DNA of 25,300 nucleotides from a virus: positions 1 through 25,300 of the IMG/VR virus record IMGVR_UViG_3300029267_000127. One strand, written 5' to 3'. Both the position numbers and the translations under genes were made by a program. This document shows, in pieces, positions 1 through 25,300 of this stretch; the first letter of the stretch is position 1; each line of letters opens with the position of its first letter. A model generated the notes under the pieces. It saw only the letters and a list, made by a program, of their open reading frames with translations. It was not told the DNA's origin and ran no database searches.

Positions 1-915
1 ATTATAAGTTCCTGTGCTGGGTGCGATATACTTATAAGTCGTCGTATTGAAGTTTCCTGGTGCGTCCAATTCAATATTATCATAAGGGATAATTTGTGAT
101 GTGAATTGATTATTATATTCTTCAATACTAACATTCAGTTCATTTTCTTTGTTTTCAACAATTATACTTTCATCATTTCCAAACGCAGATAAGTATAGTT
201 TTCTAAATAAATTGGAAGTCAAAAAAGTTGATGTATAAGAATATCCCGCTTCTTCAAATATCTTATCCCAAATGGCTTTAGCCCTTATCATCGGTTTGAA
301 CCTATTGATTGGAAGGGGGTTTCCTGTTCCCGATGAAGTGAAGTGTTTACCGACATTATCTTGTGATATACGGGTTTCAATTGGAATACCATCTTCGTCG
401 TAGTTCACCCCAAAATCAATCAATGGATACAATATATCACCTTGAAATAATCCATTTGTTAATGAAGGGGTATTTGGATACGCAGCCCAACTTAATATAA
501 CATTGGATATGTTTTGTGTGTGCGTATATTCGGATAAGTCAAGTTCATTCAAATAACCTTCCCCGACTGATGTTCCAAAATCTTTTGTTTCACCCAAAAA
601 GATAAGTTCGTAGTCAACCTTCTGTTGTTGTCCTGATAAGTATATCTTCTGTAGTCGGATTTGTCCAGTCCTGAATAACAAACTATCAACATATATGAAG
701 GCTTCCCTTTTTTGTGTTATATCAAAATCCAATCCGTTGATTTCAAATGCTGTTTTGAAAAACTGATTGTTATGTGAAGTCGCAGGAACACGGAATGTCC
801 TTGAAAAGACACTCTTCGCAGATGTATCCCGAATGTCTTCAATACTGAAGGTTAATTTCGGGGGGCTCTGTTCATATAAGTCAATTGAAATACCATCAAT
901 AATTAATTCAACCAT
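1..915 (-). CDS. Large tail structural protein, left copy, cut by window edge
   Basis: The frame is open from the ATG at 915 to the window edge, giving the first 305 residues of a protein that is complete at 19897-22116 (739 aa). The N-terminus (MVELIIDGISIDLYEQSPPK) is nearly identical to that copy, with scattered changes further in. The start overlaps the stop of the upstream 458-aa gene. By position, between that gene and the tape measure in the complete copy, it is probably a tail-tip or baseplate component; this is inference from context. The missing C-terminal part lies outside the window. Confidence 0.85.
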   Translation of the reverse strand, partial: MVELIIDGISIDLYEQSPPKLTFSIEDIRDTSAKSVFSRTFRVPATSHNNQFFKTAFEINGLDFDITQKREAFIYVDSLLFRTGQIRLQKIYLSGQQQKVDYELIFLGETKDFGTSVGEGYLNELDLSEYTHTQNISNVILSWAAYPNTPSLTNGLFQGDILYPLIDFGVNYDEDGIPIETRISQDNVGKHFTSSGTGNPLPINRFKPMIRAKAIWDKIFEEAGYSYTSTFLTSNLFRKLYLSAFGNDESIIVENKENELNVSIEEYNNQFTSQIIPYDNIELDAPGNFNTTTYKYIAPSTGTYN

Positions 916-2291
916 TATCCCCTTTGTATATTCAATTTATGTGCTGATTTCATCTGTATCTGATATTGGAAGAATTTGTCTTTTCTGAATGTTCGTTCAT
1001 TCCAAGTCGTATTCGTCAACACTACAGGAACCCAAGTAGTTGATGGATGAAAACGAGCACGAACATCAGGTGATACAAACAAACTTTTTAGTTTCAACGC
1101 ATCTTCATCAGATAAGAAATCTGTTGTGATTGTCCAACCTTCTTGAACATCAGTATGGTATACTTGTTCACCCCTTGAATAGTTTGGCAAACTGAATGTG
1201 GCTTCACCCCAAGTTCCTTCTGGTTTCACATAAGTTTCACGACTTATGGTATAGTTATTATCCGTCCTTTTGGTGAAATAATAATAATCACGAACACCAA
1301 AACTATTCAACCAACTTAATTGGACATAATCAAAGTCATTACATTGTTCATCAACAATATCCACCCTGATTGGAGCATATGTCGGTGTCGGACTATAATC
1401 ATCTTCTGTTGAACTACAATTTCCAGTTCCCTTCAATGTATAAGGGGCTAAATAGTAATGTGTTATGTTTTGAAAATTTGTCACCAGTCCTGCGTTTCTA
1501 TTTCCTGAATTGAAGTGAATAATATCATATGGATATACTGGGTCTGTTTCATCAAATAAGACATTATAAATGGTGTCCAATATAATTATTCCACTTGTGT
1601 TCACCAAAGTCATTCTGACTCCCCTAATTCCTTCACATCCCGTTGGTATTGGAAATGAAATATTTTCCCTTGAATAGTTCAACCACGAAGTGATGAAATC
1701 AACATCATTTCGGTGTCTTGTCAAACAATATACATCTTGTATTGACGCATCAGTTGAAATCCAGTCTGGTATGACACCAGTCAAAAATGTTTTGTTTTTT
1801 GTGGTGAACATATCAGATAATCCAACCCCTTTTTCTGATATGATTGGACACCCAACTACTCCCGCAAGTAAGGGGGTATAATTTTGATAAGGGAAGTCCA
1901 ATTCATTCCATTCTTTTCGTCCACCAATAACAATCTTATTGGATAATGTTCCTTGAACCACAAACACCCCAACACCATTGATGTATCCATATCTTAATGA
2001 ATACCTGAAGGTTTCGTCGGGGGCAAATGAAAACGCATTTGATGTTTCCGCACTATAGTTTGGTGTCGTATAATTTTGTAGTATCTTCTGAATATCAAAG
2101 TGAAAATACCCCTGAATATTTGGATATTGTTCCACAAGTGCTATTCGTGTTGATAAGTCCGTTGTCAAAATTTCAACGGCACATTTTTCACCTGTTTCAT
2201 TCAAATCAAAGAATGTATACAAGTTTTTTCCATAAGATTTTTCAACCTTATTTATATCAGAAATCAGTGATAAGTCAGGTGCTTCAGCCAT
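915..2291 (-). CDS. Tail-associated structural protein, 458 aa (left copy)
   Basis: I do not recognise a named family. The protein follows the gp10-like gene and precedes the large tail protein, so a virion tail or receptor-contacting role is likely. The reading frame opens at TTG 2297, but the ATG at 2291 (MAEAPDLSLI) is preferred and is conserved in the other copy. It is rich in aromatic and Thr/Ser residues with no signal peptide or membrane segment, as expected for a beta-rich virion protein. Compared with the copy at 22116-23492, substitutions cluster at residues 141-193 and 267-303, while the C-terminal 150 residues are nearly constant. It overlaps the upstream gp10-like gene by 8 nt and the downstream gene at base 915. 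Confidence 0.8.
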   Translation of the reverse strand: MAEAPDLSLISDINKVEKSYGKNLYTFFDLNETGEKCAVEILTTDLSTRIALVEQYPNIQGYFHFDIQKILQNYTTPNYSAETSNAFSFAPDETFRYSLRYGYINGVGVFVVQGTLSNKIVIGGRKEWNELDFPYQNYTPLLAGVVGCPIISEKGVGLSDMFTTKNKTFLTGVIPDWISTDASIQDVYCLTRHRNDVDFITSWLNYSRENISFPIPTGCEGIRGVRMTLVNTSGIIILDTIYNVLFDETDPVYPYDIIHFNSGNRNAGLVTNFQNITHYYLAPYTLKGTGNCSSTEDDYSPTPTYAPIRVDIVDEQCNDFDYVQLSWLNSFGVRDYYYFTKRTDNNYTISRETYVKPEGTWGEATFSLPNYSRGEQVYHTDVQEGWTITTDFLSDEDALKLKSLFVSPDVRARFHPSTTWVPVVLTNTTWNERTFRKDKFFQYQIQMKSAHKLNIQRG

Positions 2292-2736
2292 TTCCAAATT
2301 CTTTATTATAAATATTTATAAGTCGCTCTTCTATATCTTTTGGATAAAAATCAAAGGCGTCAATACCTGGAACCTTCTTTGGATTGTGTTTACTACCAAA
2401 CCTATATCCAACAGGTTCATTGAATGCCCCAGCGACTTCTGCGGGTATTCCAAACGCTCCATTTCTTTTGAAACCATCAACACCAAAACTTAAGAAATAA
2501 CCATAATACATCATTTGAATGATGAAGGCATCTTCTTCAATACGAACCCCTGAAAAACTCCGTCTTAAGTTTCCCGTCCTGTTTTTGAATGGTGCTCTGC
2601 GTGTTCCACCTTTGTATAATAAATTGTATACATCAGATAATAACACCGACAATTCACCATCAACCCCTTTGTCAAGGTATTCGGCTGTTTTCAGTATTTC
2701 GTTTGCCAATTCGTCTATATTGTCTTCAATCGGCAT
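2284..2736 (-). CDS. HK97 gp10-like neck/tail completion protein (left copy)
   Basis: This 150-aa protein has the hallmark of the HK97-gp10 family: a basic RTGNLRRS motif at residues 53-60, followed by YYGYFLSFG at 77-85. Known members join the head connector to the tail and help finish the neck. The N-terminal 45 residues look helical. The ATG at 2736 directly follows the stop of the 146-aa gene, and the 3' end overlaps the 458-aa gene by 8 nt, so the genes are probably co-translated. The copy at 23485-23937 has the same length and only a few residue changes. Confidence 0.8.
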   Translation of the reverse strand: MPIEDNIDELANEILKTAEYLDKGVDGELSVLLSDVYNLLYKGGTRRAPFKNRTGNLRRSFSGVRIEEDAFIIQMMYYGYFLSFGVDGFKRNGAFGIPAEVAGAFNEPVGYRFGSKHNPKKVPGIDAFDFYPKDIEERLINIYNKEFGNG

Positions 2737-2737
2737 A

Positions 2738-3178
2738 TCAAATTGGTTTGTCGCAAATGTCCAATGGACTATTATAAATTATTGTCAACGCTCCCGTAGC
2801 CCCAACCACATCATCTGAAAACCTTTCTTTGAATGGTGTTATGGTGAAGGGTGTTGATATTTCAACAAGGGGATGAACCAAAGTCATATTGAACTTTGAA
2901 ATCACATCAGTCAAATACTGAATACATAATGACTGGTGTTTAATTATATCCCTTTTGGTGTCCTTTGCTTGTGTCATACTGATAAGATTGAAGGTGAACC
3001 TTGAAACCTTATTGTCAGCCTGAATATTGATTGGATTAAGAAACATATACGGATAATCAGGTGCTTCATTTGTATCGGGGGTATTCATATCACTTATATC
3101 CCCGTATCCAAATGTGTTCACGAACTTATGATTTTCACATATACTTTCTATTGTTGTTATGATTTCTTCGTATGTCAT
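2738..3178 (-). CDS. Putative tail terminator/completion protein, 146 aa (left copy)
   Basis: A small soluble alpha/beta protein with no motif I can assign firmly. It sits next to the gp10-like gene, where tailed phages usually encode the tail terminator (gpU-like), so a tail-completion role is inferred from position. The frame opens at TTG 3181, but the ATG at 3178 (MTYEEII) is used because the right copy starts there. It overlaps the end of the 234-aa gene by 44 nt. The region FTFNLISMTQ is retained in both copies; the changes are scattered. Confidence 0.65.
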   Translation of the reverse strand: MTYEEIITTIESICENHKFVNTFGYGDISDMNTPDTNEAPDYPYMFLNPINIQADNKVSRFTFNLISMTQAKDTKRDIIKHQSLCIQYLTDVISKFNMTLVHPLVEISTPFTITPFKERFSDDVVGATGALTIIYNSPLDICDKPI

Positions 3179-3839
3179 CAATCTGTTTTTTTTCTTCTTC
3201 TAATTTATCTTTTTTCCATGCCAAGAAATTGAAACATTCCTTGACATTATGGTTCACGACTTCTTTGATATTCAGAAACTTTTCGTCAGCCAAAACCATA
3301 ATTAAGTCATACCACATATATTCGGGGGAAATCTTTTCTATTTCTTCTTTGATTTCCCCTTCTTCGTCAATACCAAATAATTTTGAATAACCTTTGAAGA
3401 TGGTTTCCCTATATCTGATATATGATTGTATCGCTCCCCAAACTTGTCGTAGTGTTATGTCCTTTGTGTCGTTTAATCCATATAATTTCTTCGCAATACC
3501 ATCAATGGTTTTTCTTAACCCCTTATTGAATAGTATTTCCAAATCAATGAAATCACCCAATGTAATGTCATCAAAGTTGATAAGTTTGTGTTCACCAATT
3601 TCTTTGACTATATCACAATCGGACGGATACAGGACATTATAAATAATTATCACCCCAACTGATTTGGTTTTGTCGGGGATTATTTCAATTTCGTCGTCGG
3701 GGATTTCCATTGCTTCCTTAAGAATGTATGCCCAACTAAATTCGGACTCCACATCAAAACGAGCCAAGTCCTTCCACTTATCCAAAGTGAAATCTTCGGG
3801 AACACTATATGTATTGTTATTTATGACGAAATCAAACAT
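3135..3839 (-). CDS. Conserved phage protein, 234 aa, after terminase (left copy)
   Basis: The frame is open from ATG 3902 (255 aa), but the right copy has no ATG there and starts at the position matching 3839 (MFDFVINNNTYSV), so 3839 is chosen. The protein is acidic and mostly helical. Its charged, Lys/Asn/Arg-rich C-terminal tail is the most variable part between copies. It starts 13 nt after the terminase stop and overlaps the next gene by 44 nt. Its place ahead of the neck and tail genes would suit a tail assembly chaperone or neck factor, but I see no motif that proves it. Confidence 0.65.
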   Translation of the reverse strand: MFDFVINNNTYSVPEDFTLDKWKDLARFDVESEFSWAYILKEAMEIPDDEIEIIPDKTKSVGVIIIYNVLYPSDCDIVKEIGEHKLINFDDITLGDFIDLEILFNKGLRKTIDGIAKKLYGLNDTKDITLRQVWGAIQSYIRYRETIFKGYSKLFGIDEEGEIKEEIEKISPEYMWYDLIMVLADEKFLNIKEVVNHNVKECFNFLAWKKDKLEEEKKQIDDIRRNHNNNRKYM

Positions 3840-3852
3840 ACTTAAAAATATA

Positions 3853-5070
3853 TTATCTAACCCAATTGTATGAACCCTTCTTCTTTTTTGTTTTTCGGGC
3901 ATAGTTGGTGATTGCTAATGACATAACGCAGTCGTCGTGAAACCCCTTTTCAGCACCATACTTAATGTTCCGTGTTGAAGGTGAATATTCAAATGTGAAG
4001 GTGTTTAATTCTTGAAATAAGGGGGGATATAATTCTTGTGAAGGTATGACTATACTTCCATCATTAAAATCCAATATCAGTCCTTCTATGATTTCCTGTT
4101 TGGTTTTTGTATTGGTGATGAAGGGTTCAATGTCTTTATATTCATCCCGTATCTGTTCATATATCACATCCCCTATACTATTCACTTCCACCAGTGCCGA
4201 TGCCTTGTGTTCCTTAAGTTTTTTGATGATGTTATTGATGATGATTTTCCAATCTTTTTTATTATCCCGATATATGTCAATCACATTCCCCGCATCATCC
4301 ATAAATGTTGCGACTGAATAATCCATTTGTCTTCCCAAGTCAATACCACAATATATCCGTCCTTGTGGTTTTGGATATTCATTGAAGGTGGTTATGTTAT
4401 GGAACACCTCTCCACCATCATCCACAAATTCAGCCAAGTATTCCTGTTTGTATACATTTTCAGGAAGTGTCTTCTTTGCTTCAATTACATCATTCTTATT
4501 GACATACGGATTGTCATAACTATTCCCGTGATATGATTTGTAGTCGGGGTATTCATCTGACTCCCCCATCTGATATAAATTATAAAACCAATTTTTTCCT
4601 TTCGGGGTTGATAAGAATAACACCTTCTTTCCCTTTACCAGTAGTGTCGGTTTGATGGCTTCAATCCATGCTTCTTCTTTGATGTATGCGGCTTCGTCAA
4701 TGATACAATAGTCAAATGTATACCCCCTGATGTTGTCGTATCTTTCCGCACTTCTGAAGATGATTTCCGAACCATTCTTCAGTATGATGATATTGTCCGA
4801 ATAATTACAAGTTTCCACTATTTCAGTGTCCACAATGTTTTTGAACAATTCTTTTTGAACTTTGTTGGTTTGTGAATATACGGGGGAAACCCATAAGATA
4901 CTTGTATTTGGATTATTTATTCCCCAATATAACATAAGGTTCATTGCCAACAAACTCTTCCCAGATTGTCTTGAAATGGATACAATGTGGTATTTTGATG
5001 AACCCCTGACTCCATCAAGAATTTCCTTCTGTTTCTTCGTCGGTATTATCCCTGTTATTTGCTTCGCCAA
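3853..5070 (-). CDS. terL: Terminase large subunit (packaging ATPase-nuclease)
   Basis: This 405-aa protein is the motor that translocates and cuts DNA during head filling. Walker A is SRQSGKS at residues 33-39, Walker B is CIIDEA at 122-127, and the coupling motif is LSTPKG at 153-158. The RNase H-like nuclease domain shows the expected acidic residues: D244 in GIDLGRQMDYS, E295 in VEVNSIG, and the DD pair at 379-380 in HDDCVMSLA. The start is TTG at 5070. An in-frame stop lies three codons upstream, and the next ATG comes after Walker A, so TTG is the best start. The 5' end overlaps the small-subunit candidate by 56 nt. Confidence 0.95.
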   Translation of the reverse strand: MAKQITGIIPTKKQKEILDGVRGSSKYHIVSISRQSGKSLLAMNLMLYWGINNPNTSILWVSPVYSQTNKVQKELFKNIVDTEIVETCNYSDNIIILKNGSEIIFRSAERYDNIRGYTFDYCIIDEAAYIKEEAWIEAIKPTLLVKGKKVLFLSTPKGKNWFYNLYQMGESDEYPDYKSYHGNSYDNPYVNKNDVIEAKKTLPENVYKQEYLAEFVDDGGEVFHNITTFNEYPKPQGRIYCGIDLGRQMDYSVATFMDDAGNVIDIYRDNKKDWKIIINNIIKKLKEHKASALVEVNSIGDVIYEQIRDEYKDIEPFITNTKTKQEIIEGLILDFNDGSIVIPSQELYPPLFQELNTFTFEYSPSTRNIKYGAEKGFHDDCVMSLAITNYARKTKKKKGSYNWVR

Positions 5071-6300: not shown

Positions 6301-6431
6301 TTCTTTTTTAATTCTTTTTTGAATGCCATTAATTTATTATATTTTCTTTGTTCTTCCACTTTATATAAATACAAGTCATACCAGTTTTTCAACGAAAACT
6401 GGAACTGGTTTTTTTTCATTTCTTCTTCCAT
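6288..6431 (-). CDS. Small basic protein, 47 aa, after the helicase
   Basis: The ATG at 6431 overlaps the helicase TAA by one base (TAATG), a usual translational-coupling arrangement. The product is highly charged and helical, rich in Lys, Tyr and Trp, and ends LKKKWKK. It fills what would otherwise be a 188-base gap in a gene-dense strand, which supports it being real. No family is recognised; nucleic-acid binding is possible from its charge. A short inverted repeat with a T-run lies inside its 5' part (6381-6416). Confidence 0.6.
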   Translation of the reverse strand: MEEEMKKNQFQFSLKNWYDLYLYKVEEQRKYNKLMAFKKELKKKWKK

Positions 6432-7657
6432 TATCCTAACATAAATTGTTCGTTTTCTTTTATTTCAATTTCCATTGTATTTGGATTCCATTTGATATTA
6501 TGTGCCGATGATGTTTTTCCGTATCTGTTTTTGATAATCGCAACATCCGCCTTATTGTCATCAATCTGTTGACTTGTTCGTGAAACACCCAATACCATTG
6601 TTGCTTTTTGTCCTTTGGATACGGAACCAGCCATCTGACTTAAGTCAGGTATTTCATTATTCAATCCACTTCTATTGGTTTGAACCGCAGTCCAAAATAC
6701 AATGTTATTCTTCCAACAGAATTCTTCCAATTCATTGGATGTATTTATTTCGCTCATCCAGTTTTCTTTTCTGACTTTCGTTGGAGCCAACAAATCCAAA
6801 TAGTCCAAACATATCGCATCGGGGGTGAACCCTTCAGCCTTTAGTGTTTCCATAAAATCTTGAATATCACTTAATGATGTTTTCCCCGAATACATTTTTA
6901 CCACCTTAAGATTTGGAATGGTTTTCCCCCTCTTTAAGAGTTCATTTGATGGATTGCCTAACTTCACCCTATGAAGACGAATATAATCGTTTGTTGCCCC
7001 CTCAAAAACGATATGAAGGACTTTCAGCCCCCTTAACATCAGTTGGTTCGCCATATATGATAAGAATACTGATTTTCCAATCCCCGTTGATGCCAACAAT
7101 ATTCCAATTTCGCCGCGCCCAACACCACCATTATTATCAATCAAATCCACCCCCGTTGGAATAACATCCCGTTCCAATTCTTCATCATAATCCCAAAGGT
7201 TTTTCACTTCGTAGTCATAATCATTCTTCTTCAGTTTTTCAATGTCTTTCAACTTTGAAAATAATGTATCAGTATCAATCTTATGTATTTCTTCACCAAC
7301 ATTGGAAATCATATTTTCCTCCAACTTTCGTTTCATATTATCAATCATATATTTCTTTTCCCCGTCAGTCATTTGAATATCTTGTATTTGGTATTTCACA
7401 TGCTCCATTATTTGTTTCTTCAGAATGTTTTTTTCAACACCATCTTCAATCTTTGAAGGAAGGTTTTCATCAATTCGTATATTCAGTATTTCATAAGTTG
7501 GTATTTCATTATACAAATCAAAGTGTTCCTTCACATTGGTATAAATAAAATCAATCGCTTTATTCTTAAACCTATACTTCTTCAGTATATTTTTATTCTT
7601 CTTAAAAAACTTTGGTTCTTCAAGTATCATCTTAATTAACAAGTTGTCATAATTCAT
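6431..7657 (-). CDS. DnaB-like replicative helicase
   Basis: The 408-aa protein has a RecA/DnaB-type ATPase core: Walker A ASTGIGKS at residues 189-196, Walker B ICLDYLDLL around D285, then TAVQTNRSG at 323-331 and KNRYGK near 376-381. The N-terminal 150 residues are helical, like the DnaB N-terminal domain. It would unwind DNA at the phage fork and probably recruits host primase and polymerase, since no other replication enzyme is encoded. The frame is open to 7717, but the ATG at 7657 (MNYDNLL) follows a clear A-rich leader and is the likely start. Repeats and an AT-rich tract lie directly upstream. Confidence 0.9.
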   Translation of the reverse strand: MNYDNLLIKMILEEPKFFKKNKNILKKYRFKNKAIDFIYTNVKEHFDLYNEIPTYEILNIRIDENLPSKIEDGVEKNILKKQIMEHVKYQIQDIQMTDGEKKYMIDNMKRKLEENMISNVGEEIHKIDTDTLFSKLKDIEKLKKNDYDYEVKNLWDYDEELERDVIPTGVDLIDNNGGVGRGEIGILLASTGIGKSVFLSYMANQLMLRGLKVLHIVFEGATNDYIRLHRVKLGNPSNELLKRGKTIPNLKVVKMYSGKTSLSDIQDFMETLKAEGFTPDAICLDYLDLLAPTKVRKENWMSEINTSNELEEFCWKNNIVFWTAVQTNRSGLNNEIPDLSQMAGSVSKGQKATMVLGVSRTSQQIDDNKADVAIIKNRYGKTSSAHNIKWNPNTMEIEIKENEQFMLG

Positions 7658-7850: not shown

Positions 7851-8144
7851 TTAATGTTTTTGTTCCCCGTAGTTTACCATTGGTTTTGGTTTCTTTTTAG
7901 TCAGATTCAAATATCTTATCTGTCTATTTTCAGTCAGATTTCTTCTGATATACCCCCCATCTTCCAGTTCTTTGATTTTTCTTTTTATTGTCATAATTGA
8001 ACAACCCATCAAACTGGATAATTTCTGATTGGATACATAACACGCTGCGTCCTTTGGAAAACCTTTGATGTATGAATATATTAAATTCATATACACATCA
8101 CCAAACCCCCAATCCTTATAAATAATGTATTCTTCTTTTTTCAT
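7851..8144 (-). CDS. Winged-helix DNA-binding protein, likely replication initiator or regulator
   Basis: The 97-aa protein has a helix-turn-helix at about residues 38-60 (SNQKLSSLMGCSIMTIKRKI), then a wing with GGYIRR and a basic tail. This resembles the HTH_36-type N-terminal domain of phage replisome organisers, although no separate C-terminal domain is present. It starts at ATG 8144, overlapping the stop of the RHH gene by one base. It lies directly upstream of the repeats and helicase, so binding the GTGAARACGGAA sites is a reasonable guess. A plain transcription regulator is the alternative. Confidence 0.7.
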   Translation of the reverse strand: MKKEEYIIYKDWGFGDVYMNLIYSYIKGFPKDAACYVSNQKLSSLMGCSIMTIKRKIKELEDGGYIRRNLTENRQIRYLNLTKKKPKPMVNYGEQKH

Positions 8145-8350
8145 TATTTCTTATATGGATTTGGAATATCAAATGGATGATTTTTTTGTTCTTCTTCAAT
8201 CCATTCAGACAATTGTTTGATAATAAGATGTTCCAACTTGTCCTTCATTGTTATGTCCCTATTGACACATTGTTTTTTGAATTCATTGTGAAGTCCCGCA
8301 GCGATATGGATGGTTCGCTTGTTTACCATTTTCAAACTTTCTTGTTTCAT
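8144..8350 (-). CDS. Ribbon-helix-helix (CopG/Arc-like) regulator
   Basis: This 68-aa protein has the RHH plan: a strand (KRTIHIAAG, residues 11-19), a helix (LHNEFKKQCVNR) and a second helix (TMKDKLEHLIIKQLSEW). RHH dimers read DNA with paired strands and usually repress their own promoters. It is the first gene of the leftward transcript, preceded by the divergent promoter region. An A-rich leader precedes ATG 8350. An AGTAGTATA motif upstream of it recurs at a second promoter (8750-8780), making it a candidate binder there. Confidence 0.75.
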   Translation of the reverse strand: MKQESLKMVNKRTIHIAAGLHNEFKKQCVNRDITMKDKLEHLIIKQLSEWIEEEQKNHPFDIPNPYKK

Positions 8351-8402
8351 AATTTTTAAGTTTTGTATTTTTATTTATATCCATAAATATAGTAGTAGTA
8401 TA

Positions 8403-8410
8403 CAAAAGTA
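8403..8410 (-). promoter_or_regulatory. Possible leftward promoter -7 box for the RHH operon
   Basis: On the minus strand TACTTTTG (8410 to 8403) matches the Bacteroidota -7 element TAnnTTTG. It would start a transcript near 8396 with a leader of about 45 nt before ATG 8350. No TTTG is found at the expected -33 distance, only an A/T run, so the promoter is weak or needs an activator. Confidence 0.4.
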
Positions 8411-8431
8411 TCAATAGTCCATAAAAAAAAT

Positions 8432-8462
8432 TTTGTGGATTGAAAACTTTGTCTTATATTTG
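8432..8462 (+). promoter_or_regulatory. Bacteroidota-type promoter for the 8467 gene
   Basis: TTTG at 8432-8435, a 19-nt spacer, and TATATTTG at 8455-8462 match the Bacteroidota consensus TTTG-N19-21-TAnnTTTG exactly. Transcription would begin at about 8466-8469, on or beside the ATG at 8467, so the mRNA may have essentially no leader. Confidence 0.75.
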
Positions 8463-8466
8463 TGGT

Positions 8467-8736
8467 ATGAAAATCATCAACATCCCCCAAACACTTAATC
8501 AAGTCAAATCACAATCAACTTTGGTTGGAAAACTTCAAGTCCTATACATCATTAAGGAACACGCTTTGTATCCACATCTGATGGATATGATTTCTAAATT
8601 GATTGATATGGACATGCGTGGTATTCATACCCAACAAGACACATTGAACTACATTGACGAAATTTGTGATGAATGTATCAATCAATTCAACAATCCCCCC
8701 AAAGTCAAAAAAGTTGACTCTGAACTTCCTTTTTGA
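8467..8736 (+). CDS. Small helical protein with an SSB-like C-terminal tail
   Basis: An 89-aa protein of unknown family on the plus strand, opposite to almost all other genes. It starts at ATG 8467 (MKIINIPQTLNQ). A TTG at 8440 in the same frame is rejected because it lies inside the promoter. Residues 8-75 look helical, and there are two Cys in DEICDECINQF. The C-terminus is basic (PPKVKK) and then ends VDSELPF, close to the acidic D-D-x-P-F tail by which bacterial SSB recruits partner proteins. It does not look like an OB-fold SSB. A role in capturing host replication or repair factors is inferred. Confidence 0.7.
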   Translation: MKIINIPQTLNQVKSQSTLVGKLQVLYIIKEHALYPHLMDMISKLIDMDMRGIHTQQDTLNYIDEICDECINQFNNPPKVKKVDSELPF

Positions 8737-8763
8737 CGACAAATTCAACAAGTAGTATATTTG
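8732..8763 (+). promoter_or_regulatory. Second Bacteroidota-type rightward promoter
   Basis: TTTG at 8732-8735, overlapping the end of the 8467 gene, a 20-nt spacer, and TATATTTG at 8756-8763 form a full consensus promoter. Its start point would be about 8767-8770. It lies 54 bases or more ahead of a strong terminator and about 105 bases ahead of the 8875 gene. An inverted repeat (8750-8780) straddles the -7 box. Confidence 0.65.
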
Positions 8764-8780
8764 TTATTAAGATACTACTT
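8750..8780. promoter_or_regulatory. Inverted repeat, candidate operator
   Basis: AAGTAGTAT (8750-8758) and ATACTACTT (8772-8780) are perfect 9-bp inverted arms with a 13-nt spacer, centred on the predicted start of the 8732 promoter. A protein bound here would block the -7 box. AGTAGTATA also occurs at 8394-8402 beside the leftward -7 box. The adjacent RHH protein is the obvious candidate, by inference. Confidence 0.5.
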
Positions 8781-8854
8781 TTGTTGCCATAATATTAGTA
8801 TATTGTATTTTTATTTTTTTGGATGGAGTGTCAACGGACACTCCATTTTTTTTT
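8768..8854 (+). ncRNA. Possible short RNA or attenuated leader
   Basis: The promoter at 8732-8763 is followed by the terminator at 8823-8854 with no ORF between them. Transcription would give an RNA of about 80-90 nt, or a leader whose terminator controls the 8875 gene. ATACTA (8772-8777) can pair with TAGTAT (8796-8801) as a 5' stem. No known RNA family is recognised. Confidence 0.35.
8823..8854 (+). terminator. Rho-independent terminator or attenuator, rightward
   Basis: TGGAGTGTC (8824-8832), loop AACG, GACACTCCA (8837-8845), then nine T residues (8846-8854). The 9-bp perfect stem with an A-T extension and a T-run only on the plus strand gives a clear direction. It ends the 8467 transcript and lies just before the 8875 gene. 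Confidence 0.85.
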
Positions 8855-8874
8855 CACATATATTATCTTATAGT

Positions 8875-9063
8875 ATGCCAAAAGGAATTAAGACATTACC
8901 CCAATCAAATAACCCCATTGACTACAATGAAACAATGGAAGCATTACGACGAATTGGATACGACACGACACAAAACATTAATCTTCAATTTAAGGACAAA
9001 ATAAGACGCATATACGGAGTTTCTTTGGATGATATGGATACTGACATTAAGTCAAAAAAATAA
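8875..9063 (+). CDS. Small protein of unknown function, 62 aa
   Basis: The ATG at 8875 starts MPKGIKTLPQSNNPIDYNET. The longer upstream frame runs through the terminator and is not used. The product is charged, with a helical segment (ETMEALRRIGYD) and a region LQFKDKIRRIYGVSLDDMDT, ending SKK. No family is recognised. No strong promoter lies between the terminator and this gene, so expression probably depends on read-through from 8732 or 8432. Its stop codon TAA forms one edge of the bidirectional hairpin at 9061-9081, where it meets the late genes head-on. Confidence 0.6.
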   Translation: MPKGIKTLPQSNNPIDYNETMEALRRIGYDTTQNINLQFKDKIRRIYGVSLDDMDTDIKSKK

Positions 9064-9416: not shown

Positions 9417-10505
9417 TTATACAATTCTTATTTTAACAACACCTGATGTGTGATAAAATTGTCCTAATTGAACTCCACCTGCGGCTGCTGCTGTATCATC
9501 AGCAAAATCCAATGAAGCATATTGTGTCATTCTTAATTTATAAACAACCGCTTCGTCATCTTGTAGTGTTGTCTGTCCCTGTCCTCCAACAATAACACTT
9601 CTATTATGTGATACATTATTATTTATTCCACTTACAACGACTCCACCTTGTCCATTAGACACCCTATTACTTTCACCACCAATAACAACACTTCTTAATT
9701 TCTCCGCTCTGTTATTTCCACCACCACCAATAACCGCAGAATGTTCACCTGATGCGGTATTAGCAAAACCACTAACAACAGCATTATTACCTGATGCGGT
9801 ATTACTCTGTCCTCCTAAAGCAACGGCTCTATTACCAGTTACACTATTACCATTACCAGCAAAAATACCATTATCATCACCATTACTTTTTATGTTATTT
9901 CTTCCACCGATAATAACACCCTGCCAACCCTGACTTAAGTTATTATCTCTTCCTGCGAACATACCCCTTCTATAACTATCAAAGGACATATCATTACCTA
10001 TACCAGCAATAATAACATCATTACTACCTTGTGAGGCAATAGTATTACCATCACCTCCAATCATACCACTATTTATTCCTCCAAGTAAAGTGTTATTTTG
10101 TCCACCAATTAAATACCTATTACTATTTCCTGTGGTTATTCTATTACTTGTATCATCACCACCCGCTAAAAAGGTATTTGTATTACCTGATGTAATCGCA
10201 GATAATGGATAATAATCAGGAAGAACATTATTTGTTCCATCACCTGAAACAAACACTCCACCACCACCACCAGTTGAACCACTTAAATATATTGTTTGTC
10301 CTGATGTGGTTATGTCTATATTCGTTCCACTAAAGATTATATCCCCCGTCAAACTTTCCAATGAATTTACCCCCGTTCCATCACGCAAATCACTGACTTT
10401 GACTGAATATGTCGCAGTGTTTCCACTATCAACAACAGCCAATCTATCATCACTTGTGATGCCTGTCCTTAAGGGCAAATCAAATATTTTCTTGTTTCCA
10501 GCCAT
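9417..10505 (-). CDS. Tail fibre/adhesin with YadA-like head repeats
   Basis: A 362-aa protein. Residues 1-45 form a small attachment-like region (KIFDLPLRTGITSDDRLAVV). A Gly-rich hinge follows near residues 76-83. From about 107 to 312 there are many 12-18-residue repeats of the type GxxNxxxxxxxVxxGG (AVALGGQSNTASGNNAVVSG), the left-handed beta-roll of YadA-like trimeric adhesins. The C-terminal 50 residues (YKLRMTQYASLDFAD) look like a separate tip domain. It is likely a trimeric host-binding fibre; the trimer is inferred from the fold family. Confidence 0.75.
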   Translation of the reverse strand: MAGNKKIFDLPLRTGITSDDRLAVVDSGNTATYSVKVSDLRDGTGVNSLESLTGDIIFSGTNIDITTSGQTIYLSGSTGGGGGVFVSGDGTNNVLPDYYPLSAITSGNTNTFLAGGDDTSNRITTGNSNRYLIGGQNNTLLGGINSGMIGGDGNTIASQGSNDVIIAGIGNDMSFDSYRRGMFAGRDNNLSQGWQGVIIGGRNNIKSNGDDNGIFAGNGNSVTGNRAVALGGQSNTASGNNAVVSGFANTASGEHSAVIGGGGNNRAEKLRSVVIGGESNRVSNGQGGVVVSGINNNVSHNRSVIVGGQGQTTLQDDEAVVYKLRMTQYASLDFADDTAAAAGGVQLGQFYHTSGVVKIRIV

Positions 10506-19896: not shown

Positions 19897-22116
19897 TTAA
19901 AAAATTCCGTTCCATTCCATTGATGCTTCATCCCATCTGAAGTCCGCAGTATTCCAAACAATTTGTGGTGGAACGAAACCACCTGTATCAATGTCGTAGT
20001 CAACCAACTTAATTAAGTCCACTTTGACTAATGACTTTTTTCCAATCGGAACATCCGATATTTTTTCAACATAAAAATATGTGTTTTTAACGAATATAAC
20101 ATCATCAAAACTGAAATCCCTTAAGTCATTATAGTCCAACACAAAATAACCCGTCATTCGTCTTGAAAAGGGGTTATAAAGGGAGTCAATATACCCCTCC
20201 CAATATCTTTCATACGCAGATTGTCCATTCAACGCATTCGGGAAGTTATTTACATACCCCTGTTCCCTTTGCCAATTCAAATTGAATGATGATGACGAAG
20301 GTTCGTATACATCATAATATGAAACCATCGGATAATCATCCAAAGGGTTTCCAGCAAACGCTTCAATATACCAATCAATACCATCCGTATCTTTTCTTCC
20401 ATTATAAAATAATAACCTTGAATGTGGACGAATTGGTTTGTGTTGAATTGGAAATGAAGAGTCAGTTCCAGGTTCGTGGGCATGGATTTGTGGAATGACG
20501 AATGTATCCCCAATCGCAGTATTCTTTCGTTCAATTTGTGTTATTGGTGTCGGGGCGAAATTCGTTTTTATCGTTCGTTCACCCGATAAATAATCATTAC
20601 TTGAATTGACTATAAGTGAACCAAATACTTCATCAAATATGTCTTTATTCAATTCATTCAAAAAGTCCTTATCTTGTCCTTTGTCAGTGAAATTAATCAC
20701 CGATTGTTGTGTAAAGAATGTTGGTTCATATATCACATCTTTGGATAAGTCCAACTTATCAGTCCAATCAAATACTTGTCCTGTTCCAATATATTCCTGC
20801 CAAGGTTCAATATTGAAGTGTTTTGCTCTGACTTTGTCTGGAACTAATACCAATCTAAATTTGGTGATTATGTCCTTAATGAAATCAATCTTTTTATACT
20901 TGTCATCAAGAAGGGGAGCAATCGCTACATCACCAGGTGCCGATAATACCAACAAATCAGATGAAGAAATATTATACCTGTCAAAGTCAGGTGATATAAT
21001 ATTAATACGAACTTGTATTGTATCACCCGCAGTCAACGACAATACTTGAACACCAGAATCAAAACTTATATTTGTGATATTTTCACCAACGACATTGTAG
21101 TTTTGTGAATAAATTGTAGTGGTATTTCTTTCCAATTCAACTTGAATTGTTCCCGAACCAAATTCTGTTCCACCTAATATACCATATAATCGGGCTCTGA
21201 TATTATAAGTTCCGGATGCCGGAACTTCATACTTATAAGTCGTCGTATTGAAGTTTCCCGCAGCATCCAATAAAATATTATCATAAGGAATAATCTGTGC
21301 GTCAAATTGGTTATTGTATTCTTCAATACTGACTTCCAATTCATTCTCCCTGTTTTCAACAATTATACTTTCATCATTTCCAAACGCAGATAAGTATAAT
21401 TTTCTAAATAAATTGGAAGACAAAAAAGTTGATGTATAAGAATACCCCGCCTCATCAAATATCTTATCCCAAACCGCTTTGGCTCTTATCATCGGTTTGA
21501 ACCTGTTGATTGGAAGGGGGTTTCCTGTTCCCGATGAAGTGAAGTGTTTACCGACATTGTCTTGTGATATACGGGTTTCAATAGGTTCACCATCTTCGTC
21601 GTAGTTTACCCCAAAATCAATCAATGGATACAATATATCACCTTGAAATAACCCTTGTATCAACGAAGGGGTTTGCGGATACGCAGCCCAACTTAAAATG
21701 ACATTGGATATATTATGTGTATGTGTATATTCAGACAAGTCCAATTCATTCAAATAACCTTCCCCGACTGATGTTCCAAAATCTTTGGTTTCACCCAAAA
21801 AGATAAGTTCGTAGTCAACCTTCTGTTGTTGTCCTGACAAGTATATCTTCTGTAGTCGGATTTGTCCTGTCCTGAATAACAAACTATCAACATATATGAA
21901 GGCTTCCCTTTTTTGTGTTATGTCAAAGTCCAATCCATTGATTTCAAATGCCGTCTTAAAAAAATTGTTATTATGTGAAGTCGCAGGAACACGGAATGTC
22001 CTTGAAAAAACACTTTTCGCAGATGTATCCCGAATGTCTTCAATACTGAAGGTTAGTTTCGGGGGGCTCTGTTCATATAAGTCAATTGAAATACCATCAA
22101 CAATTAATTCAACCAT
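19897..22116 (-). CDS. Large tail-tip/baseplate-type protein, 739 aa (complete copy)
   Basis: The protein starts MVELIVDGISIDLYEQSPPK, then a conserved region SVFSRTFRVPATSHNN. The middle part has beta-rich stretches (TTTYKYEVPASGTYNIRARL, about residues 290-310). Towards the C-terminus it has GYFVLDYNDLRDFSFDDVIF and finally RWDEASMEWNGIF. No enzyme motif is seen. It lies directly before the tape measure with a 15-nt gap, so it is likely part of the tail tip or its hub. The copy at 1-915 covers the first 305 residues and has been changed mostly by scattered substitutions. Confidence 0.8.
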   Translation of the reverse strand: MVELIVDGISIDLYEQSPPKLTFSIEDIRDTSAKSVFSRTFRVPATSHNNNFFKTAFEINGLDFDITQKREAFIYVDSLLFRTGQIRLQKIYLSGQQQKVDYELIFLGETKDFGTSVGEGYLNELDLSEYTHTHNISNVILSWAAYPQTPSLIQGLFQGDILYPLIDFGVNYDEDGEPIETRISQDNVGKHFTSSGTGNPLPINRFKPMIRAKAVWDKIFDEAGYSYTSTFLSSNLFRKLYLSAFGNDESIIVENRENELEVSIEEYNNQFDAQIIPYDNILLDAAGNFNTTTYKYEVPASGTYNIRARLYGILGGTEFGSGTIQVELERNTTTIYSQNYNVVGENITNISFDSGVQVLSLTAGDTIQVRINIISPDFDRYNISSSDLLVLSAPGDVAIAPLLDDKYKKIDFIKDIITKFRLVLVPDKVRAKHFNIEPWQEYIGTGQVFDWTDKLDLSKDVIYEPTFFTQQSVINFTDKGQDKDFLNELNKDIFDEVFGSLIVNSSNDYLSGERTIKTNFAPTPITQIERKNTAIGDTFVIPQIHAHEPGTDSSFPIQHKPIRPHSRLLFYNGRKDTDGIDWYIEAFAGNPLDDYPMVSYYDVYEPSSSSFNLNWQREQGYVNNFPNALNGQSAYERYWEGYIDSLYNPFSRRMTGYFVLDYNDLRDFSFDDVIFVKNTYFYVEKISDVPIGKKSLVKVDLIKLVDYDIDTGGFVPPQIVWNTADFRWDEASMEWNGIF

Positions 22117-23492
22117 TATCCCCTTTGTATATTCAATTTATGTGCTGACTTCATCTGTATCTGATATTGGAAGAATTTGTCTTTTCTGAATGTTCGTTCA
22201 TTCCAACTTGTATTTGTCAACACTACCGGAATCCAAGTATTTGATGGACTGAAACGAGCACGAACATCAGGTGATACAAACAAACTTTTTAATTTGTCTG
22301 CGTCTTCATCAGATAAGAAATCTGTTGTGATTGTCCAACCTTCTTGAACTTCAGTATTGTATACCTGTTCACCCCTTGAATAGTCAGGCAAACTGAATGT
22401 TGCTTCACCCCAAGTCCCTTCAGGTTTCACATAAGTTTCACGACTTATTGTATAATTATTATCCTTCCTTTTTGTGAAATAATAATAATCACGAACACCA
22501 AAACTATTCAACCAACTTAATTGGACATAATCAAAGTCATTACATTGTTCATCAACAATATCAACCCTGATTGGTGCGTATGTTGGTGATGAACTATAAT
22601 AAGTTTCTGAAGCAGAACAAGTTCCCGCTCCCTGTAATGTATAAGGGGCTAAATAATAATGTGATAAGTTTTGATATTGCGTCACCAGTGATGTGTTTCT
22701 ATTTCCCGAATTGAAGTGAATAATATCTTGTGGATATACTGGGTCTGTTTCGTCAAATAACACATCATATATGGAGTCCAATACAATAATTCCACCTGTG
22801 TTCACCAAAGTCAATCTAACCCCCCTAATCCCTTCACAACCTGATGGAATTGGAAATGAAACATTCTCCCTTGAATAGTTCAACCACGAAGTGATGAAAT
22901 CAACATCATTTCTTTGTCTTTTCAAACAATATACATTTGATATACTACTATCATTTGAAATCCACGAAGGAACGGCACCTGGCAAAATGTTTTTACTTTG
23001 TATGGTGAACATATCAGATAATCCAACCCCTTTTTCTGTTATGACTGGACACCCAATAAGTCCTGTTATTGCGGGGGTATAATTTTGATAAGGAAAATCC
23101 AATTGGTTCCATTCCTTTCTTCCACCAATCACAATCTTATTGGTTAATGTTCCTTGAACTTGAAATACTCCAACACCATTGATGTATCCATATCTTAATG
23201 AATATCTGAAGGTTTCATCGGGGGCGAATGAAAATTGTGTTGGTGTTTCAGCACTATAATTCGGTGTCGTATAATTTTGTAGTATCTTTTGAATATCAAA
23301 GTGGAAATACCCCTTTGTATTTGGATATTGTTCCACCAATGCTATTCGTGTTGATAAGTCCGTTGTTAATACTTCAACGGCACATTTTTCACCTGTTTCA
23401 TTCAAATCAAAGAATGTATACAAGTTTTTTCCATAAGATTTTTCAATCTTATTTATATCGGAAACCAATGATAAGTCAGGTGCTTCAGCCAT
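22116..23492 (-). CDS. Tail-associated structural protein, 458 aa (right copy)
   Basis: Same length and start (MAEAPDLSLV) as the protein at 915-2291, aligned without gaps. It differs mainly at residues 141-193 (for example FTIQSKNILPGAVPSW here against FTTKNKTFLTGVIPDW) and 267-303. The C-terminus ERTFRKDKFFQYQIQMKSAH is identical. This suggests an outward-facing variable part and a conserved tail-binding part. The stop shares base 22116 with the start of the 739-aa gene. Confidence 0.8.
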   Translation of the reverse strand: MAEAPDLSLVSDINKIEKSYGKNLYTFFDLNETGEKCAVEVLTTDLSTRIALVEQYPNTKGYFHFDIQKILQNYTTPNYSAETPTQFSFAPDETFRYSLRYGYINGVGVFQVQGTLTNKIVIGGRKEWNQLDFPYQNYTPAITGLIGCPVITEKGVGLSDMFTIQSKNILPGAVPSWISNDSSISNVYCLKRQRNDVDFITSWLNYSRENVSFPIPSGCEGIRGVRLTLVNTGGIIVLDSIYDVLFDETDPVYPQDIIHFNSGNRNTSLVTQYQNLSHYYLAPYTLQGAGTCSASETYYSSSPTYAPIRVDIVDEQCNDFDYVQLSWLNSFGVRDYYYFTKRKDNNYTISRETYVKPEGTWGEATFSLPDYSRGEQVYNTEVQEGWTITTDFLSDEDADKLKSLFVSPDVRARFSPSNTWIPVVLTNTSWNERTFRKDKFFQYQIQMKSAHKLNIQRG

Positions 23493-23937
23493 TTCCAAAT
23501 TCTTTATTATAAATATTTATAAGTCGCTGTTCAATATCTTTTGGATAAAAATCAAAGGCGTCAATACCTGGAACCTTCTTTGGATTGTGTTTACTGCCAA
23601 ACCTATATCCAACGGGTTCGTTGAATGCCCCAGCGACTTCTGCGGGTATTCCAAACGCTCCATTTCTTTTGAAACCATCAACACCAAAACTCAAGAAATA
23701 ACCATAATACATCATTTGAATGATGAAGGCATTTTCTTCTATACGAACACCTGAAAAACTTCGTCTTAAGTTTCCTGTTCTATTTTTGAAGGGGGTTCTT
23801 CGTGTTCCACCTTTGTATAATAAATTATATACATCGGATAATAATACTGATAATTCACCATCCACCCCTTTATCAAGGTATTCAGCGGTTTTAAGTATTT
23901 CATTTGCTAATTCGTCTATATTATCTTCAATCGGCAT
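23485..23937 (-). CDS. HK97 gp10-like neck/tail completion protein (right copy)
   Basis: A 150-aa protein almost identical to that at 2284-2736: TPF for APF at residue 48, N for D at 69, and Q for E near 137. The RTGNLRRS signature is unchanged. Most nucleotide differences between the copies are silent, so both are functional genes. It ends 8 nt inside the 458-aa gene. Confidence 0.8.
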   Translation of the reverse strand: MPIEDNIDELANEILKTAEYLDKGVDGELSVLLSDVYNLLYKGGTRRTPFKNRTGNLRRSFSGVRIEENAFIIQMMYYGYFLSFGVDGFKRNGAFGIPAEVAGAFNEPVGYRFGSKHNPKKVPGIDAFDFYPKDIEQRLINIYNKEFGNG

Positions 23938-23938
23938 A

Positions 23939-24379
23939 TCAGAATGGTTTGTCGCAAATGTCCAATGGACTATTATAAATTATAGTCAACGCTCCCGTAG
24001 CCCCAACCACATCATCAGAGAAACGCTCCTTGAATGGTGTTATGGTGAAGGGTGTTGATATTTCAACAAGGGGATTATCCAAAGTCATATTGAACTTTGA
24101 AATCACATCAGTCAAATACTGAATACATAATGACTGGTGTTTGATAATATCCGCTTTGGTGTCCTTTGATTGCGTCATACTGATAAGATTGAAGGTGAAC
24201 CTTGAAGTTTTGTTGTCCGCTTGAATATTGATTGGATTAAGAAACATATATGGATAATCGGGCGCTTCATTTGTGTCGGGGGTGTTCATATCACTTATAT
24301 CCCCGTATCCAAATGTGTTTACAAACTTATGTGCTTCACATATAGTTTCTATTTTTGTTATTATTTCTTCGTAAGTCAT
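23939..24379 (-). CDS. Putative tail terminator/completion protein, 146 aa (right copy)
   Basis: Counterpart of 2738-3178, starting at ATG 24379 (MTYEEIITKIETICEAH). This start has no TTG extension and fixes the start of the other copy. Changes are scattered (HPL to NPL near residue 102, the C-terminal residue I to F). It overlaps the 234-aa gene by 44 nt, as in the left copy. Confidence 0.65.
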   Translation of the reverse strand: MTYEEIITKIETICEAHKFVNTFGYGDISDMNTPDTNEAPDYPYMFLNPINIQADNKTSRFTFNLISMTQSKDTKADIIKHQSLCIQYLTDVISKFNMTLDNPLVEISTPFTITPFKERFSDDVVGATGALTIIYNSPLDICDKPF

Positions 24380-25040
24380 TTAATCTTTTATTTTCTTCTT
24401 CCAATTTATCTTTTTTCCATGCCAAGAAATTGAAACATTCCTTCACATTATGTTTGACGACTTCTTTGATATTCAGGAACTTTTCATCCGCCAAAACCAT
24501 AATTAAGTCATACCACATATATTCGGGGGAAATCTTTTCAATTTCTTCTTTGATTTCCCCTTCTTCGTCAATACCAAATAATTTTGAATAACCCTTGAAT
24601 ATGGTTTCCCTGAATTTGATATATGATTGTATCGCTCCCCAAACTTGTCGTAATGTTATGTCCTTTGTGTCGTCAAGATTGTATAGTTTCTTTGATATTT
24701 TATCAATGGTTTTTCTTAACCCCTTATTGAATAAGATTTCCAAATCAATAAAATCACCCAAACTGATTTCATCAAAGTTGATAAGTTTGTGTTCACCAAT
24801 TTCTTTGACTATATCACAATCTGACGGATACAGGACATTATAAATAATTATCACCCCAACTGATTTTGTTTTGTCGGGGATTATATCAATTTCATCATCG
24901 GGGATTTCCATCGCCTCTTGAAGTATGTAAGCCCAACTGAATTCGGACTCCACATCAAACCGAGCCAAGTCCTTCCACTTATCCAATGTGAAATCTTCGG
25001 GAACACTATATGTATTGTTATTTATGACGAAATCAAACAT
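24336..25040 (-). CDS. Conserved phage protein, 234 aa (right copy)
   Basis: Counterpart of 3135-3839, starting MFDFVINNNTYSV at 25040. The upstream ATG available in the left copy is ACG here, so this start is shared. The C-terminal 20 residues (EENKRLNDLRRNNNKNRNYM) differ most, while the stretch GYSKLFGIDEEGEIKEEIEK is unchanged. Function is unknown; possible tail chaperone or neck factor by position. Confidence 0.65.
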   Translation of the reverse strand: MFDFVINNNTYSVPEDFTLDKWKDLARFDVESEFSWAYILQEAMEIPDDEIDIIPDKTKSVGVIIIYNVLYPSDCDIVKEIGEHKLINFDEISLGDFIDLEILFNKGLRKTIDKISKKLYNLDDTKDITLRQVWGAIQSYIKFRETIFKGYSKLFGIDEEGEIKEEIEKISPEYMWYDLIMVLADEKFLNIKEVVKHNVKECFNFLAWKKDKLEEENKRLNDLRRNNNKNRNYM

Positions 25041-25053
25041 ACTTAAAAATATA

Positions 25054-25300
25054 TTATCTGACCCAGTTGTATGAACCTTTCTTCTTTTTAGTTTTTCGTG
25101 CGTAGTTGGTTATTGCCAAAGACATAACGCAGTCGTCGTGAAACCCCTTTTCAGCACCATACTTGATGTTCCGTGTTGAAGGTGAATATTCAAATGTGAA
25201 GGTGTTTAATTCTTGAAATAAGGGGGGATATAATTCTTGTGAAGGTATGACTATACTTCCATCATTAAAATCCAATATCAGTCCTTCTATGATTTCCTGT
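25054..25300 (-). CDS. terL: Terminase large subunit, C-terminal part (right copy, cut by window edge)
   Basis: The frame is open to the right edge and encodes the last 81 residues of the terminase. These include the nuclease-domain end GFHDDCVMSLAITNYARKTK and the terminal YNWVR, as in the complete gene at 3853-5070. The 135 bases next to the edge are identical to that gene. The rest of the gene lies beyond the window. Confidence 0.9.
   Translation of the reverse strand, partial: QEIIEGLILDFNDGSIVIPSQELYPPLFQELNTFTFEYSPSTRNIKYGAEKGFHDDCVMSLAITNYARKTKKKKGSYNWVR

Follow-up and report, generated by a model that had tools for sequence, protein, structure and literature searches.

The locus raises the question whether a small phage protein works, through its last six residues, like the tip of bacterial SSB. 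The ORF was analysed within a 25.3-kb virus record, of which the whole length is referred to as the window. An earlier note had placed a plus-strand gene for an 89-aa protein at 8467..8736 (+), and the translation bears this out. The ORF starts with ATG, has the C-terminus NNPPKVKKVDSELPF-stop and ends KKVDSELPF, with the codons of the SSB-tip-like DSELPF at 8716..8733 (+). The full translation is MKIINIPQTLNQVKSQSTLVGKLQVLYIIKEHALYPHLMDMISKLIDMDMRGIHTQQDTLNYIDEICDECINQFNNPPKVKKVDSELPF, and the C-terminal tail peptide of the protein is PPKVKKVDSELPF.

The two ends of the window (1-4099 and 21202-25300) represent two versions of the same region with 90.95% identity, and the junction is spanned by L075, a near-identical contig (about 98%). 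The repeated ends together with this contig indicate a genome length of about 21.2 kb, and two strain variants seem to have been joined in the record around a genome that is circular or terminally redundant. The 89-aa gene is oriented divergently from the leftward early/replication operon. The predicted early promoter and control region of this operon (8360..8416, −) lies upstream of the early genes and shares 80% identity over 56 bp with the corresponding stretch before the early operon in the relatives L065/L012. Gene 1 of the operon (8144..8350, −) encodes a weakly ribbon-helix-helix-like (Arc-like) protein (weak profiles, E 0.16-0.21), of which a 49%-identical homologue is found in the contig L080. 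The operon also encodes an HTH_36 replication-initiation or helicase-loader-like protein (7851..8144, −; Pfam HTH_36 E 1e-9, phrog_270 E 1.9e-9) and a DnaB-like replicative helicase (6431..7657, −; phrog_19 E 5e-52). The earlier view that the phage encodes only a helicase for replication is contradicted by the initiation-like protein. Further products of the phage are a sigma-like protein, a terminase, a portal, a tape measure protein and a Pam3-type holin, and no SSB was recognised in profile searches of the phage proteins scanned. The tail-region protein encoded at 9417-10505 (−), which has a counterpart in L060, contains repeats similar to ice-binding beta-rolls and YadA heads and is probably a tail fibre or adhesin. 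The portal is 51% identical to one encoded by a Flavobacteriaceae MAG contig and has a relative in Nonlabens phage P12024S. Because of these portal relatives, the phage probably infects a member of the Flavobacteriaceae.

In a single-sequence AlphaFold2 prediction, the 89-aa protein formed an all-helical bundle without strands, with predicted helices at residues 6-15, 19-29, 36-50 and 56-75. The best model had a mean pLDDT of 73 and the other models 56-66; with five models spanning 56-73 and a single sequence as input, such a model is weak evidence and the fold assignment tentative. Within this limit, the model agrees with the helical nature proposed before and tentatively rules out an OB fold, as the five-stranded barrel is missing. 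Residues 80-89 are predicted to be disordered (pLDDT <50). No SSB or OB-fold family of Pfam, PHROGs or NCBIfam matched the protein, and no PDB chain was similar to it in sequence. A fold search with the helical model yielded nothing significant in the PDB (best E 3.4) or BFVD (best E 0.98). The top VIA-align Z of 6.7 was dismissed as a sign of homology, because such values are common among helical bundles. As judged from profiles and model, the protein is not a member of the SSB family.

Homologues of the 89-aa protein were found neither in viral contigs, 50,697 phage records, 72,556 plasmid records and genome contigs nor in the whole records of 19 relatives and five further records including L080. 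A search of 395 class-level and 397 family-level genomes gave no accepted homologue either; two family-level matches in one genome (E 2e-4 and 0.01) lay inside a long protein, interpreted as signal peptidase I, and were discarded as chance matches. Since no relatives are known, the match to the SSB tip is not yet separable from luck. Apart from the near-identical but partial L075, a single syntenic relative, the 22.2-kb contig L080, carries this replication module together with upstream sequence (identity to the window 87% for the HTH protein, 61% for the helicase and 66% for the terminase). L075 ends within the helicase gene and therefore provides no strain variant of the 89-aa gene. L080 contains no homologue of the protein and no ORF ending in PF, and the gene is also absent from L065, a more distant relative that has the control stretch with 80% identity. 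Judging from its absence in both contigs, the 89-aa gene occupies a variable position with the early promoter on one side and the late genes on the other, and its absence from the sole relative with the same replication module makes it look accessory.

The divergent gene of L080 encodes a 57-aa protein with weak similarity to the product of window positions 8875-9063 (+). The latter, a protein of 62 aa, is weakly similar to L080:9432-9605 and, by eye, to L059:1623-1904. The motif IG[YL]....I[NH].QF..K..YGV is common to 8875-9063 and L059:1623-1904, possibly marking a tiny phage protein family. L059 and L060 belong to the 28.3-kb contig of L003, which encodes two different terminase large subunits and carries a methyltransferase start repeated at its end; the contig therefore looks chimeric. 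In L065, four direct repeats of ~21 bp are located within the first early gene (3485-3580) and resemble the origin iterons in a lambda O-type initiator gene.

The tip was compared with the ends of 20 housekeeping SSBs of ~150 aa (the long class), taken from Flavobacteriaceae genomes. Eighteen of these end in -DDLPF and one each in -NDLPF and -TEPF, so that -DLPF closes 19 of the 20 proteins. The 89-aa protein ends in -ELPF; its final LPF is identical to that of the same 19 host SSBs, an acid is present at −4, and the stop directly after LPF leaves a hydrophobic residue, Pro and Phe with a free carboxylate at the C-terminus. In the docking sites of SSB partners, a pocket takes the terminal Phe, a basic lip its carboxylate and a basic ridge the acids, and docking requires the terminal Phe, the Pro and the acids (PMC10164576). 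The 89-aa protein shares with the Flavobacteriaceae form of the SSB C-terminus (-DDLPF) the LPF end, acids at −4 and −6 and the C-terminal position after a disordered stretch. It differs in that it has no OB-fold domain, E instead of D at −4, S at −5 and a short tail, and in that its flank is basic (K-V-K-K) instead of acidic. The basic linker reported in the earlier note is present (K at −8, −9 and −11), and the tip holds two acids only (−4 and −6). Owing to the K-V-K-K flank, the last nine residues sum to a net charge of 0, compared to −2 to −6 in the host SSBs, and by inference from the docking geometry the flank should weaken docking.

Given the residue composition at the C-termini of 777 ORFs of related viral contigs, a [DE][LI]PF end has a chance of 2.1e-5 per protein, or 4e-6 with a further acid at −5/−6. 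Two of the 777 proteins have such a tail, namely the 89-aa protein and L082:2683-3684. The latter matches PHROG 1192, an SSB family, and provides a positive control, since the tail, apart from the case in question, is the mark of an SSB in these phages. This SSB ends KDEEDLPF, and gp20 (DUF3127) of Nonlabens phage P12024S ends DADPLF. Like the 89-aa protein, both are phage-encoded and have a hydrophobic tip with nearby acids; unlike these two members of SSB families, the 89-aa protein matches no SSB family, and its model is a helical bundle. Over ~28 genes, about 6e-4 [DE][LI]PF tails are expected per window, a value that is only suggestive and no proof, because many other motifs could have been singled out. 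In 31 Flavobacteriaceae genomes, the count of DNA encoding E-[LF]-P-F-stop did not exceed that of the reversed control, and inspection of 30 sampled matches revealed none that clearly closes a real gene.

A match to a flavobacterial-type promoter, TTTG-N19-TATATTTG, is located at 8432..8462 (+), for a pattern with 3.2 chance matches expected within the window. The −7 box of this promoter lies at 8455-8462. In Flavobacterium psychrophilum, a TAnnTTTG box is located at −12 to −5 from the transcript start, and 5.5% of the mapped mRNAs are leaderless (PMC9723704). With the same spacing, the transcript is predicted to begin with the A of the ATG (8467), and the mRNA of the 89-aa gene is expected to be leaderless. 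Downstream of the gene, a strong intrinsic terminator with a 12-bp stem and a T run was identified at 8821..8848 (+). A second promoter-like match (8732..8763, +) overlaps the 3' end of the gene and could give rise to an early RNA of about 80 nt ending at the terminator, which lies 60-85 bases further on. Such an RNA would fold with a z of −4.7, to which the terminator hairpin is the main contributor. No Rfam family exceeded the threshold for the 8732-8848 region, and a known RNA element was therefore rejected here.

This second promoter match also fits the reading that the ORF is untranslated and that the region up to the terminator is a non-coding early region or encodes a short RNA. Although the ORF is the longest ATG ORF of its region, an ATG ORF of at least 89 codons was present in 109 of 3000 Markov shuffles (3.6%), corresponding to p about 0.04 from length alone, and its codon score of 0.04 bits/codon is lower than that of every accepted gene (0.14-0.51). 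However, spurious plus-strand ORFs scored −0.19 on average (sd 0.15), which puts the ORF 1.5 sd above them, and the other two forward frames of 8467-8736 scored below its own frame. In addition, the predicted transcript start falls exactly on the ATG, and the modelled fold is a plausible helical bundle. The positions of promoter and terminator lend further support to the ORF, which we regard as very probably a real gene; an untranslated region is accordingly improbable. If the protein is made, DSELPF might be directed at the host beta sliding clamp instead of imitating SSB. Clamp-binding hexapeptides are QLxLP[LF]-like, for example QLSLPL in Hda, and usually have Q followed by an aliphatic residue at positions 1-2. 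The terminal L-P-F suits the second half of such a hexapeptide and shares its L-P-hydrophobic end with Hda, and a phage that brings its own helicase but in which no polymerase is recognised has to connect to the replisome of its host. The tip nevertheless has D and S at positions 1 and 2 in place of Q and an aliphatic residue, and a C-terminal location is not required of the clamp motif, yet the tail stops exactly at F as in SSB. A clamp-binding role is thus very unlikely, and both this and the untranslated ORF are less likely than tip mimicry or chance.

A coincidental tail has to be taken far more seriously. The protein could be an ordinary fast-evolving accessory protein (a regulator, or a protein for host takeover or anti-defence) with its function in the helical domain and no SSB-related role of the tail. 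The missing homologues and the absence from L080 are typical of small accessory proteins, the tip is low in acidity with a basic flank, and at ~2e-5 per protein such tails are inevitable over very many windows. Together with the low codon score and the free choice of the motif, the same points weigh against mimicry. On the other hand, only about 6e-4 such tails were expected in this one window, and it is the exact LPF of the host, with the acid at −4, that is found. The disordered tail beyond the helical domain suits a docking tip, tails of this kind are rare and the only other owner among the 777 proteins is an SSB. Moreover, the gene adjoins the helicase and initiator-like genes, with its own promoter and terminator, and the scanned phage proteins include no recognised SSB. 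Of the results that the earlier note named as refuting, neither was seen, since the searches and the model revealed neither homologues that end differently nor another clear fold or function. Taken together, we consider it plausible, with a probability of roughly 0.4, that the 89-aa protein works like an SSB tip, and a chance resemblance is about equally probable. The fuller proposal, that a helical, non-OB early phage protein copies the host SSB tip and thereby diverts or blocks host replication and repair factors, is put forward tentatively and is somewhat less probable. In the literature searched, which covered few subscription journals, no phage mimic of the SSB tip is described.

According to this proposal of tip mimicry, the 89-aa gene would be an accessory gene of a ~21-kb phage probably infecting Flavobacteriaceae. 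The host RNA polymerase would start early transcription at the gene's own promoter and proceed away from the replication operon. The product, a small helical protein with a flexible C-terminal tail ending in -ELPF, would use this tail to occupy the conserved pocket in at least one of the host proteins that interact with SSB, such as RecO, RecQ, PriA, exonuclease I or primase. The last Phe would lie buried in the hydrophobic pocket, with its carboxylate on the basic lip and D84/E86 on the basic ridge. As an outcome, the host factor may be recruited to phage replication or kept off the phage DNA.

With a tail due to chance, the gene would be an ordinary orphan. If tip mimicry is true, the protein would be a compact case of a phage that takes over the host SSB interaction hub by means of a copied six-residue tip, an example of a short linear motif that mimics SSB in a protein lacking any SSB domain. 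The 89-aa protein would then point to those SSB partners that matter during the infection of Flavobacteriaceae.
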